The notes beneath the pieces are model-generated. The model worked only from the letters and a program-made list of their open reading frames with translations, had not been told where the DNA came from and did not search any database. Shown in pieces: positions 50,396 to 61,923 of a DNA stretch of 64,000 nt (position 1 is the stretch's first letter; each line of letters opens with the position of its first letter). The position numbers were made by a program, and so were the translations under genes. Origin of the DNA: Flavobacterium marginilacus (lineage in GTDB: Bacteria; Bacteroidota; Bacteroidia; Flavobacteriales; Flavobacteriaceae); NCBI RefSeq assembly GCF_026870155.1, contig NZ_CP113975.1, positions 558,001 through 622,000 of the forward strand, read 5' to 3'.

Positions 50396-50410
50396 TCCTG
50401 TTGCGTCCTG
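50396..50410 (-). promoter_or_regulatory. CAGGA direct-repeat operator of the GH106 operon
   Basis: On the minus strand two CAGGA half-sites start at 50410 and 50400, exactly 10 bp apart (ACAGGACGCAACAGGACACC). TTTACG starts 31 bp after the second half-site (50369), matching the TTTGAG position at the two susC promoters. A -7-like TATATCAAC follows at 50346-50338. Confidence 0.75.
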
Positions 50411-50593
50411 TTTGTTAAAATTGAGACTTTCTTAAAATTTTATTTTTTTGTAATCAATATTTTATGAAATTATTTCAAAAAAATATTTTTTTTTGAATAA
50501 TTCTTAACAACACCTAAACAACTTATTATGAATATTTTAACAAGAGATTTGTTTTTATTAAGGATTTCTATACAATAAAACATAGTCATGTTA

Positions 50594-50610
50594 CAGGATA
50601 CTGCAGGATA
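50594..50610 (+). promoter_or_regulatory. CAGGA direct-repeat operator of susC1
   Basis: CAGGATA at 50594-50600 and 50604-50610, 10 bp apart. TTTGAG begins at 50635, 31 bp after the second half-site; TTTAAC follows 24 bp later at 50659 and the ATG 35 bp after TTTGAG. The susC2 site has the same spacings. Confidence 0.82.
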
Positions 50611-50669
50611 GTAAGCGTCATAATGATAAATAATTTTGAGGATTAATATTAACCTATATTTAACTTTTT

Positions 50670-53600
50670 ATGAAAAATAAAACAAGTCTTTGGGTTTTTA
50701 TGGTTTTGTTTGCTTTGTTACAAACGGTAACATATGCGCAGAATAAGGCCATAAAGGGAGTAATTACAGACCCAACTGGATTACCAATTCCTGGAGCAAA
50801 TGTGACGATTAAGGGATTAAAAAAAGGAATAAGTTCTGATTTTGACGGACATTATTCTATTGATGCCAAGACGGGCGACATTTTAGTTTTTAGTTTTACA
50901 GGAACAAAAACAATAGAGAGAGTCGTTGGAACTTCAGATGCTTTAAATGTGACTTTAAGAGAAGAAACAGCTACTCTTAATGAAGTAGTAGTTATTGGAT
51001 ATGCCGCGGTTAAAAAGAAAGATGTGACAGGATCTGTATCGAGTATCAATGCAGAAGCTTTGACTTCTAGACCAGTAAATAATGCTATTGAGGCTTTACA
51101 GGGTAAAGCTGCCGGTGTAGATATTACTACAAGTCAGCGTCCGGGAACAGTTGGAACAGTACGTATTCGTGGTAGACGTTCGATAATTGCTGATAGTGAT
51201 CCTCTTTATGTAGTTGATGGAGTGCCTTTGATGTCAGCTTCTTCTATTGAAACGCTTAATCCAAGAGATATTGCAAGTATTGATATCCTTAAGGATGCTT
51301 CTGCAACAGCTATTTATGGTTCTCGTGGTGCAAACGGGGTTATCATTGTTACTACTAAACAAGGTAAATCAGGACAGTTCAGCTTGAATTACGCGGGAAC
51401 GATTACTACATCTAATATTGTTGACAGATCGCCTTCAATGAGTGCTCAGGATTTTATAAATTTCAGACGTACGGCCGCATACAATCTTAACTCTATGCCA
51501 GGTTCTACTACAAATTATGCAAGTCCGGATGCTCCTACGTATGCAAATGACAAATTGATTTTTGACAGTGCACTTGACGGACAGTCTACCAGAGATAATG
51601 TCTTGAATGGCTGGGCCAGTGGTACTTGGGATCCTTCTAAGGTAAAGAATACTGATTGGACAGATTTTGTAACTCAAACTGGAATTACAACTGAACATAC
51701 TTTGAGCGCAAGTGGTGGTTCAGATAAAGTGAACAGTTATGGTTCATTTGGATATTTGAATAATGAGGGTACTCAAATAGGACAGTCTTATAAACGTTAC
51801 ACAGCAAAACTTAGTACTAATATTACTCCTGTTGACTGGTTCAAAATGGCTTTTTCATTGAATACGACATGGAGTGAGCAAAGTTATGGTATGTCAACTT
51901 TGGGGAGCAGTAGCTCTTCGGGACCTAATACAATTTATGCGGCTGCTAAATCAATTTATAACATGGCAGTTCCTTATGATGCAAATGGCAATTTAGTAAT
52001 CAATCCAGGGGGTGAAAGTACTATTTATACAATAATGAATGAATGGGACAAAAGTACCCAATTGTCACAAACGATGCGTATTTTAGGTAATTTCTCAGGT
52101 ACTCTAAATTTTGGAAAAATGTGGGAGCCATTGAAAGGACTTAGCTATAAGTTAAATTTTGGTCCTGATTTCCGTCATTTGAGAGATGGTGTTTATATTG
52201 ATGGAACATCTGTAAATAGGATGAGTGCTGGTGGAATTGCAGGTGCAAATTATGCTAGGCTTCAAAACCGTCGTGATTTTTCATGGACTTTGGATAATAT
52301 GATAACGTATGACCGTACTTTAGCGGAGAAGCACAATGTTGGTGTTACATTGCTGCAGACTGCATCATCTTGGAATATTGAAAATACATCGATGAGTGCT
52401 AATAATATACCTAATTCAAAATTTTTATGGAATGCTTTTGGTACTGTAGATGTTACTAATGCTGCTAATAAAGTAGCTATTAGTTCTGGACTTACTGAAT
52501 ACCAGCTTACGTCCTATATGGGGCGTCTGAGCTATGGTTATGATGATCGCTACTTATTGACAATGTCAGGGCGTTGGGACGGAGCCTCTCAGTTAGCAAA
52601 AGGCTTCAAATGGGACTTTTTTCCGTCAGCAGCACTTGGGTGGCGTATTAATAAGGAGGAATTCTTTAAAGATGTAAATTGGGTTCAAAACCTAAAACTT
52701 CGCTTAGGTGTTGGTACAACTGGTAACGCAGGTGTGAAGCCTTATGCATCAAAAGGTCCGATCACTTCAGTCTACGTTCCTTTTAATGGGTTGGCTAACG
52801 AAATTACTTATACTACTAATGAACCCTATTATACAACTCCAACAAACTTAGTTGCAATGGCTAACAAGGAACTTGGATGGGAAAAAACAACGCAATATAA
52901 TCTTGGGATTGATTTTGGTATCTTAAATAACAGAATTAGCGGTAGCATTGAGGCTTATAAGTCGTATACTAATGATTTGCTTTTGTTGGTTACTCTTCCT
53001 CCATTAACTGGATATCCTAATACATATGATAATGTTGGCAAGACAAGTAACAAAGGGATTGAGGTCACGCTTAATTTAATTCCTGTACAGATAGAAAATG
53101 GATTTAGCTGGGAAACTAGTTTGATTGGTGCTTGGCAAAAAGATAAGATAGAAGAATTGGCTTATGGTAAAAATGACATGGTAGACGATAGAAGGTTTAT
53201 TGGACAATCAATTAATATTCAATACGGTTTTGATAACCTTGGAATATGGCAGAACACCCCTGAAGATCTTGCTGAAATGGCTAAGTGGAATGCTGTCCCT
53301 GGTGGAGATAGATTTACGGTTGGTAATGTTCGCCCTAAAGACCAAAATGGCGATTACAAAATGACAGAAGCTGATAGAGTAATTCTTGGAAACAGCAACC
53401 CTAATTGGACAATGGGCTGGAATAACTCATTTAATTATAAAGGTTTTGAATTGGGTGTTGAAATGTACGGCCGTATGGGATATACTGCATCTTTAGGAGG
53501 AGAAGCAATGACATCTCATGCAAATCAGCGTGAAACGGATTATTGGACACCATCAAACACAGGTGCAGAGTTCCAAAAGCCTGTTCTTGGGCAGGCAACA

Positions 53601-53852
53601 TCTGGATCACAAGATAAATATTCAGGGAGTCTTGGATTTACGGATGCAGCATTTGTTAAGCTTCGTAATATTTCTTTGGGTTATAATTTTCCTAAAGACC
53701 TTGCTTCCAAAATTGGTGTAGCAAAGATGAAATTATATGCTCAGGCGTTAAATCCGGGCAATATTTATCAATCTTTGAGCTGGTATGATTTTGATGTAGA
53801 TGCAACATACTATAACAGAAGTTTTGTTATGGGACTTGAAGTTGGATTTTAA
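50670..53852 (+). CDS. susC: SusC/RagA family TonB-dependent receptor, pair 1
   Basis: A 1,060-residue outer-membrane transporter for oligosaccharides. Order: signal peptide (to about 24), carboxypeptidase-like beta-sandwich (IKGVITDPTGLPIPGANVTIKG, about 28-100), TonB-box-like LNEVVVIGY, plug domain (PVNNAIEALQGKAAGV, VVDGVPL, ILKDASATAIYGSRGANGVIIVTTKQGK, about 115-235) and a 22-strand barrel to the C-terminal Phe. It forms a complex with the SusD lipoprotein encoded 41 bp downstream. The promoter region shares its operator layout with susC2. Confidence 0.95.
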   Translation: MKNKTSLWVFMVLFALLQTVTYAQNKAIKGVITDPTGLPIPGANVTIKGLKKGISSDFDGHYSIDAKTGDILVFSFTGTKTIERVVGTSDALNVTLREETATLNEVVVIGYAAVKKKDVTGSVSSINAEALTSRPVNNAIEALQGKAAGVDITTSQRPGTVGTVRIRGRRSIIADSDPLYVVDGVPLMSASSIETLNPRDIASIDILKDASATAIYGSRGANGVIIVTTKQGKSGQFSLNYAGTITTSNIVDRSPSMSAQDFINFRRTAAYNLNSMPGSTTNYASPDAPTYANDKLIFDSALDGQSTRDNVLNGWASGTWDPSKVKNTDWTDFVTQTGITTEHTLSASGGSDKVNSYGSFGYLNNEGTQIGQSYKRYTAKLSTNITPVDWFKMAFSLNTTWSEQSYGMSTLGSSSSSGPNTIYAAAKSIYNMAVPYDANGNLVINPGGESTIYTIMNEWDKSTQLSQTMRILGNFSGTLNFGKMWEPLKGLSYKLNFGPDFRHLRDGVYIDGTSVNRMSAGGIAGANYARLQNRRDFSWTLDNMITYDRTLAEKHNVGVTLLQTASSWNIENTSMSANNIPNSKFLWNAFGTVDVTNAANKVAISSGLTEYQLTSYMGRLSYGYDDRYLLTMSGRWDGASQLAKGFKWDFFPSAALGWRINKEEFFKDVNWVQNLKLRLGVGTTGNAGVKPYASKGPITSVYVPFNGLANEITYTTNEPYYTTPTNLVAMANKELGWEKTTQYNLGIDFGILNNRISGSIEAYKSYTNDLLLLVTLPPLTGYPNTYDNVGKTSNKGIEVTLNLIPVQIENGFSWETSLIGAWQKDKIEELAYGKNDMVDDRRFIGQSINIQYGFDNLGIWQNTPEDLAEMAKWNAVPGGDRFTVGNVRPKDQNGDYKMTEADRVILGNSNPNWTMGWNNSFNYKGFELGVEMYGRMGYTASLGGEAMTSHANQRETDYWTPSNTGAEFQKPVLGQATSGSQDKYSGSLGFTDAAFVKLRNISLGYNFPKDLASKIGVAKMKLYAQALNPGNIYQSLSWYDFDVDATYYNRSFVMGLEVGF

Positions 53853-61782: not shown

Positions 61783-61805
61783 TCTTTGATTTTTATAATA
61801 ACTAT

Positions 61806-61845
61806 AAACCGTCTCATAACTATTTTGAGGCGGTTTGTTTTTTTA
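61806..61845 (+). terminator. Terminator after susD2
   Basis: AAACCGTCTCA (61806-61816) pairs with TGAGGCGGTTT (61826-61836), 11 bp with one G-U, then a T run to 61845. Confidence 0.9.
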
Positions 61846-61849
61846 TAAT

Positions 61850-61866
61850 CAGGAGAGTACAGGACG
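61850..61866 (+). promoter_or_regulatory. CAGGA direct-repeat operator of the esterase gene
   Basis: CAGGAGA (61850) and CAGGACG (61860), 10 bp apart; TTTAAA starts 31 bp on (61891) and the chosen ATG lies 33 bp after that, as in the susC promoters. GTCCTGTA at 61881-61888 is an inverted copy of TACAGGAC. Confidence 0.72.
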
Positions 61867-61923
61867 CTTATTAAAAAGTTGTCCTGTATTTTTAAATCCT
61901 CTACTCAATGTAAAAAAGAAGAT

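Follow-up and report, generated by a model that had tools for sequence, protein, structure and literature searches.

Four pairs of CAGGA half-sites, each with a strict 10-bp period, precede genes of a polysaccharide locus in a 64,000-nt stretch of Flavobacterium marginilacus DNA (contig NZ_CP113975.1, positions 558,001 to 622,000; here called the window, G000:C1:558001-622000 of a 5.3-Mb genome). We consider it probable that these pairs are rhamnose-regulon operators bound by RhaR, an AraR-type member of the GntR family with a LacI-type sensor half, and that RhaR jointly activates rhamnose catabolism and the rhamnogalacturonan locus. The sites, their spacing, conservation, neighborhood and co-occurrence were computed; binding by RhaR, rhamnose or a derivative as the signal, and activation are what we infer from them.

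Four CAGGA pairs in the window

The pattern CAGGANNNNNCAGGA matched the window exactly four times, at 50396-50410 (minus strand) and at 50594-50608, 56578-56592 and 61850-61864 (plus strand). Across 100 dinucleotide shuffles of the window, the mean was 0.05 matches and the maximum was 1. The four CAGGA pairs are not a product of chance. At all four sites, the C of the second half-site lay 31 bp from a TTT hexamer (TTTACG, TTTGAG, TTTGAG and TTTAAA, respectively), and at susC1 and susC2 a TTTAAC stood 24 bp downstream of TTTGAG. These features, and the lack of any further pair in the window, were just as the initial annotation of this stretch had described them.

By Pfam, the genes downstream of the four pairs encode GH106, SusC, SusC and a SASA-type carbohydrate esterase. 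The susC2 site carries a weaker third decamer in register (GCATGAAAGT, 56597-56606, 7 of 10 letters). Judged from sequence, the operator consensus would be approximately ACAGGAYRSTACAGGAYRST. The predicted operators are as follows.

50392..50411, minus strand: operator upstream of GH106, ACAGGACGCA ACAGGACACC
50593..50612, plus strand: operator upstream of susC1, ACAGGATACT GCAGGATAGT
56577..56596, plus strand: operator upstream of susC2, ACAGGACAGT ACAGGATAGT, with the third decamer GCATGAAAGT
61849..61868, plus strand: operator upstream of the esterase gene, TCAGGAGAGT ACAGGACGCT

RhaR and the sites beyond the window

Which protein might read these sites? The initial annotation had proposed a shared operator, built as a 10-bp direct repeat and serving the whole locus through one regulator encoded outside the window. 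Our data support this proposal, and RhaR, encoded 40 kb past the window, is the candidate regulator.

G000:C1:661686-662753, minus strand: RhaR gene, GntR plus LacI-type, 356 aa

The gene is divergent from a rhaT-rhaEW-rhaI-rhaB operon that itself carries an operator, at 663157. This operon encodes RhaT, a RhaEW-type aldolase-dehydrogenase, a protein of the rhamnose isomerase type (which scored under the NCBIfam cut-offs) and an FGGY kinase. Because the operon is divergent from RhaR, rhamnose is the probable effector. The N terminus of RhaR is a GntR winged helix (PF00392, 44.3 bits against a cut-off of 27), and its profile positions 2-94 were matched by GntR-domain structures, the AraR DNA-binding domain 4egy among them. 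At the C terminus, Peripla_BP_3 reached 24.4 bits, under the cut-off of 26.5; the predicted model (pLDDT 89.9) matched the LacI, RbsR and CcpA structures with E values of ~1e-12 to 1e-10. On the strength of that model, we assign the C-terminal half as a LacI/GalR-type sugar-binding domain. Residues 81-84, which link the two halves, are the sole stretch of at least three residues with pLDDT below 50. RhaR is 100% identical to that of Flavobacterium sp. HJJ (L101).

We examined 80 RhaR loci from named genomes, 26 of them named Flavobacterium; many are close kin, and their 68 sites reduce to 46 non-redundant ones. A matrix built only from the seven sites of the F. marginilacus locus found a match of at least 12 bits within 1.5 kb upstream of RhaR in 70/80 loci, compared with 1/60 paralog flanks and 5/80 mononucleotide shuffles. 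A divergent rha gene lay within 1.5 kb in 64 of the 80. When the operator was sought together with a -7 element, the 80 loci yielded 120 sites against 1 for the reversed pattern, and 52 of these sites did not face rha genes. Ten genes downstream of the 52, picked for variety and not at random, were assigned by Pfam: six were SusC, sulfatase, rhamnogalacturonan lyase family (PcRGLX), GDSL esterase, GH31 and fructose-bisphosphatase, and of the remaining four, three matched DUF5722, a cytochrome c domain and a secretion tail, and one had no assignment.

The motif also tracks RhaR across the family. Among 149 family genomes, nearly all of different genera, it occurred in 28/28 genomes with RhaR and in 15/121 without (Fisher 1e-19), the RhaR-positive class of 28 having been set at 430 bits after the table was viewed, with the next genome's best hit at 273 bits. 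At least two motif hits were present in 24 RhaR-positive genomes and 1 RhaR-negative genome (Fisher 1.5e-22); mean hits were 5.5 and 0.13, respectively. Over all 149 genomes, the true pattern gave 171 hits and the reversed pattern 10. Of 30 hits that were fetched, those lying outside long open frames numbered 16/17 in RhaR-positive and 1/13 in RhaR-negative genomes, and the counts for a -7 element at +27 were the same, 16/17 and 1/13.

Orthologous promoters were expected to keep the pair, and most do: the site is retained at 27/30 SusC promoters of related Flavobacterium genomes (susC1, 9/10; susC2-like, 10/12; susC3, 8/8). In these promoters the spacer has diverged while the -7 element is constant. 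RhaR is present in 17 of the 18 genomes, our own included, that bear one of the susC1, susC2-like or susC3 genes.

Within the F. marginilacus genome, the exact pair occurs 17 times and the reversed pattern once. Seven of the 17 are upstream of start codons, and each of these has a TAnnTTT-like element at the fixed place; the remaining ten lack it and lie inside open frames at least 278 aa long. (The esterase site is also within a long frame, yet upstream of its ATG.) Hence, the idea that hits would be confined to the locus fails for the 17 taken together, but the hits before genes do form a coherent set. Allowing up to three mismatches to the 19-mer ACAGGAYRSTACAGGAYRS in this genome, we obtained 30 hits, of which two repeat others in a shifted register, and the reversed control gave 11; since the control count is this high, individual three-mismatch sites are weak. 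The extended locus (608-647 kb) holds seven distinct hits, and another, at 663157, precedes RhaT-RhaEW-RhaI-RhaB. Pre-gene hits past the window include those at 622811 (DUF4861), 629095 (susC3), 646925 (GDSL esterase) and 663157 (rhaT). A second cluster of hits, at 3.127-3.181 Mb, is associated with GH2, a RuBisCO-like gene, a BNR-repeat gene and SusC/SusD. Another hit, at 372830 (L028:5830-5848) and distant from the pectin loci, precedes a fasciclin-domain gene and one more SusC/SusD pair; its TATATTTG at +27 is perfect.

The locus extends over ~601-664 kb of the contig. Its genes in the window are as follows.

43036-44841: esterase/GH43 protein, in the GH106 run
45040-46374: Pel9A-like lyase, in the GH106 run
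46445-47569: GH88, in the GH106 run
47583..50321, minus strand: GH106 (alpha-L-rhamnosidase family) gene, first of the run
50670..53852, plus strand: susC1, followed by susD1 at 53893-55992
56653..59802, plus strand: susC2, followed by susD2 at 59827-61782
61924..63426, plus strand: SASA-type carbohydrate esterase gene, ATG at 61924

Beyond the window come GH43, DUF4861, GH88, GH28, a third SusC/SusD pair, a sulfatase, GH115, GDSL esterases, GH2 and rhamnogalacturonan lyase family 11. We read these families as marking a locus of the rhamnogalacturonan-I type.

Some further observations concern individual sites and paralogs. A weak RhaR-type operator with three mismatches, C1:3132414, stands before the gene for the RuBisCO-like protein (L027:1125-2366) at the right distance to a -7-like element; racemase and transporter genes are nearby. 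A stretch of ~185 bp with inverted ends (cacggcattcgc ... gcgaatgccgtg), compared by eye, recurs in two unrelated intergenic regions, L024:2977-3161 and L098:7911-8093, and looks like a small mobile repeat. One copy sits between the C1:622811 operator and the DUF4861 gene, giving a leader of ~480 nt. The genome encodes a second RhaR-like protein (G000:C1:2648317-2649339, minus strand; 46% identical), and the neighbors scanned hold no rhamnose genes. RhaR-like genes stand side by side in some relatives, and second copies lie near RhaR in G070, G132 and G044. The operators of the second RhaR-like paralog and of an XylR-like paralog were inspected by eye. The latter, a GntR paralog adjacent to xylose isomerase and xylulokinase genes (L100:7146-7169; C1 near 3249150, minus strand), has GAACA-GAACG-GAACG-GAATG directly ahead of the start codon, which may be a further operator of the tandem kind.

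Promoter geometry and competing accounts

The initial annotation had taken the TTT hexamer for a -33 element. We rejected this identity: the TTT forms the end of the Bacteroidota -7 element, TAnnTTTG, and the TA of that element lies at +27 from the second CAGGA. Counting from the C of that half-site in the 46 non-redundant relatives, we found T at +27 in 46/46, A at +28 in 41, T at +31 in 45, T at +32 in 46 and G at +34 in 36; position +33 is often A. Neither this logo nor the set of SusC promoters was selected by the -7 element. The own-genome logo is biased, because its 16 sites were chosen by eye from the 30 relaxed hits as intergenic-looking. TTTAAC stands just ahead of the start codon, and as a -7 element it would leave the susC leaders ~3 nt. 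In the available text of PMC6847099, the F. johnsoniae TAnnTTTG element occupies T-12 to G-5, leaders average 33 nt with 87% of them longer than 10 nt, and a motif at -33 is far less apparent. By that position rule the operator would span about -50 to -31, with its center near -40, and transcription starts are expected ~39 bp past the C of the second half-site instead of 60-70 bp downstream of the sites, as had been suggested. The predicted elements in the window are as follows.

50366..50373, minus strand: GH106 promoter -7 element TATTTTTA, predicted +1 at 50361, leader 40 nt
50631..50638, plus strand: susC1 promoter -7 element TAATTTTG, predicted +1 at 50643, leader 27 nt
56615..56622, plus strand: susC2 promoter -7 element TAAATTTG, predicted +1 at 56627, leader 26 nt
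61887..61894, plus strand: esterase promoter -7 element TATTTTTA, predicted +1 at 61899, leader 25 nt

At the esterase promoter (window 61858-61888), the second half-site TACAGGAC is mirrored by GTCCTGTA, which overlaps the -7 element. No mirrored copy was seen at the other three window promoters, and a scan found no intrinsic terminator at the esterase site.

With ties counted in favor of +27, the best TAHHTTTG lay at +27 in 61/68 rha promoters and in 30/30 SusC promoters with an operator (27 of relatives and 3 of our own; the 3 without an operator were omitted). A fixed site at the upstream edge of the core promoter is the arrangement of a class II activator. A second GntR paralog, which we call GalR-like, lies beside a galactose-epimerase gene and offers a comparison. 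Before its own start it has CTACCAGTAC-CTACCAG or ACTAGTAGGG-TCTAGTAGG.

L099:6558-6578 (own genome, C1 near 4963560-4963578): GalR-like operator; GalR-like loci are L181-L210

A 10-bp repeat was present in 23/29 GalR-like loci and 0/29 shuffles, and each other period from 8 to 22 occurred in at most one locus. The two regulators' operators thus have the 10-bp direct-repeat design in common; only at RhaR's is the spacing fixed. In 25 loci, the GalR-like operator stands anywhere from 5 to 24 bp from the -7 element; the other 4 of 29 gave no half-site and were omitted. Such variable spacing is as expected of a repressor. It is mainly this contrast that leads us to call RhaR an activator.

Perhaps RhaR is nonetheless a repressor, which would block polymerase at about -40 and come off once a rhamnose-derived signal arrives? 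Regulators of the GntR and LacI types often repress, 4egy carries the name of an arabinose repressor, and RhaR bound here would reach into the upstream edge of the core promoter. However, a blocker needs no fixed distance, and in the 61/68 and 30/30 promoters above operator and -7 element are locked in phase, whereas GalR-like operators, which lie on or near the core promoter, vary in position. We regard repression as unlikely. Alternatively, an unlinked regulator that is invariably retained alongside RhaR and the rhamnose genes might bind the operator. Co-occurrence alone cannot separate RhaR from another protein that travels with rhamnose genes, and G209 has a site at its susC2-like gene and no RhaR in its 180-contig assembly. 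Yet in most of the 80 loci the operator is in the intergenic region that separates RhaR from the rha operon, an AraC candidate was found in only 4/149 genomes, and the genome has no DeoRC match. This makes such a partner very unlikely. A DeoR-type RhaR, for which repeats of 10-11 bp would be in keeping, was rejected on that last result, control genomes having been positive in 10/14.

The initial annotation had favored an AraC-type regulator, such as a hybrid two-component system (HTCS) regulator, binding the pair beside a -33 element and encoded outside the window. Bacteroides rhamnogalacturonan loci are under HTCS control via direct repeats (PMC3878776, in the part available), and an HTCS-sized HTH_18 protein is encoded at 3108658, near the second cluster of sites. 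No HTH_18 match, however, lies within ~200 kb of the locus, or anywhere on the contig between 261,894 and 821,610; the period is 10 bp against the HTCS mean of 21 bp in that source; and the element at the fixed distance is a -7 box. The AraC gene nearest the second cluster is found in 4/149 family genomes at E <= 1e-60, and the motif tracks the GntR-type RhaR. Genome position, motif period and the distribution of one AraC gene thus led us to reject HTCS/AraC control, to which we give scarcely any credence. A 21-bp repeat upstream of RhaR (12/55, against 3/55 shuffles) was also set aside: in 10 of the 12 it is one same stretch, taken as putative rhaEW coding sequence.

Several results weigh against RhaR as the activator that binds these pairs, in addition to G209, the limit of co-occurrence and the overlap with the core promoter. 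Within 1.5 kb, a good site is missing at ten of the 80 RhaR loci, and only some of these have one farther away. Three of the 30 SusC promoters of relatives (L251, L252 and L257) lack the site, and in 7/68 rha promoters the best -7 match is elsewhere than at +27. Outside Flavobacterium, the strict 10-bp repeat test is at background (4/55 loci, against 5/55 shuffles), and the operator halves, the first especially, have drifted. Finally, most GntR operators are palindromes, and some direct repeats in subfamilies other than AraR are the exceptions (PMC4494728, available portion); here we found no palindrome of the common GntR kind, the operator being a 10-bp direct repeat.

Known systems and the proposed mechanism

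AusR is said to be a GntR-family repressor of the Zobellia alginate locus; it is not tied to rhamnose. HTCS and SusR are membrane sensors, not soluble sugar sensors. In Bacteroides they act, as RhaR would here, on SusC/SusD loci through direct repeats, rhamnogalacturonan loci included; mean repeat spacing is 21 bp for HTCS and 67 or 77 bp for SusR, compared with 10 bp here (PMC3878776, sections available). The same source describes ManR and FucR of B. thetaiotaomicron, which like RhaR are GntR-family sugar regulators. The ManR regulon holds a SusC/SusD operon; their motifs were sought as palindromes in that workflow, and neither is tied to rhamnose. The AraR subfamily, with B. subtilis AraR, resembles RhaR in joining a GntR winged helix to a LacI/GalR-type sensor and in controlling sugar and polysaccharide genes, but in the text available it is described in Firmicutes (PMC4494728), whereas RhaR is in Bacteroidota and has an activator-like phase. 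Rhamnose regulators named RhaR are of AraC, DeoR and LacI type, with regulons beside rha genes (PMC3870299, as far as available). The DeoR type shares direct repeats with a 10-11-bp period, while the Bacteroides RhaR is AraC-type with a 21-bp period, unlike the GntR-type protein here. The accessible text of that paper contains neither GntR nor any word beginning Flavobacteri, and we found no report of a flavobacterial GntR/RhaR regulon or of this motif in the open-access PMC literature as far as its text was available.

We propose that each decamer (ACAGGAYRST) would be bound by one RhaR winged helix, the two lying head to tail at a distance of one helical turn and covering about -50 to -31. 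The linker at residues 81-84 may let the winged helices sit in this way. Bound at this fixed place, with the -7 TAnnTTTG starting 27 bp after the second CAGGA begins, RhaR would aid RNA polymerase when it has bound a rhamnose-derived signal. A single cytoplasmic sensor could thus switch on outer-membrane import (SusC/SusD pairs), depolymerization (GH106, lyases and esterases) and catabolism (rhaT, rhaEW, rhaI and rhaB).

We also entertain, without leaning either way, a broader idea: that the Bacteroidota GntR/LacI hybrids are a subfamily with its own operator code of tandem 10-bp decamers set head to tail, ACAGGAYRST for RhaR and CTACCAGTAC or CTAGTAGGGT for GalR-like proteins. Phase-locking to the -7 element would mark an activator (RhaR) and a variable distance a repressor (GalR-like). 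RhaR would then couple a cytoplasmic monosaccharide signal directly to entire polysaccharide loci without a membrane HTCS, from Flavobacterium to Saprospirales-type relatives such as Neolewinella.

If RhaR does act on these operators, many Flavobacteriaceae that degrade plants and algae would gain a regulator, a recognition word, a promoter geometry and a likely inducer for their rhamnogalacturonan and rhamnose genes, for which hybrid two-component sensor control is the usual guess. Their regulons could be predicted from sequence alone, given 120 sites against 1 control in RhaR neighborhoods. It would also pose a structural question: how a direct repeat is read by a protein whose LacI-type dimer half is built for two-fold symmetry.

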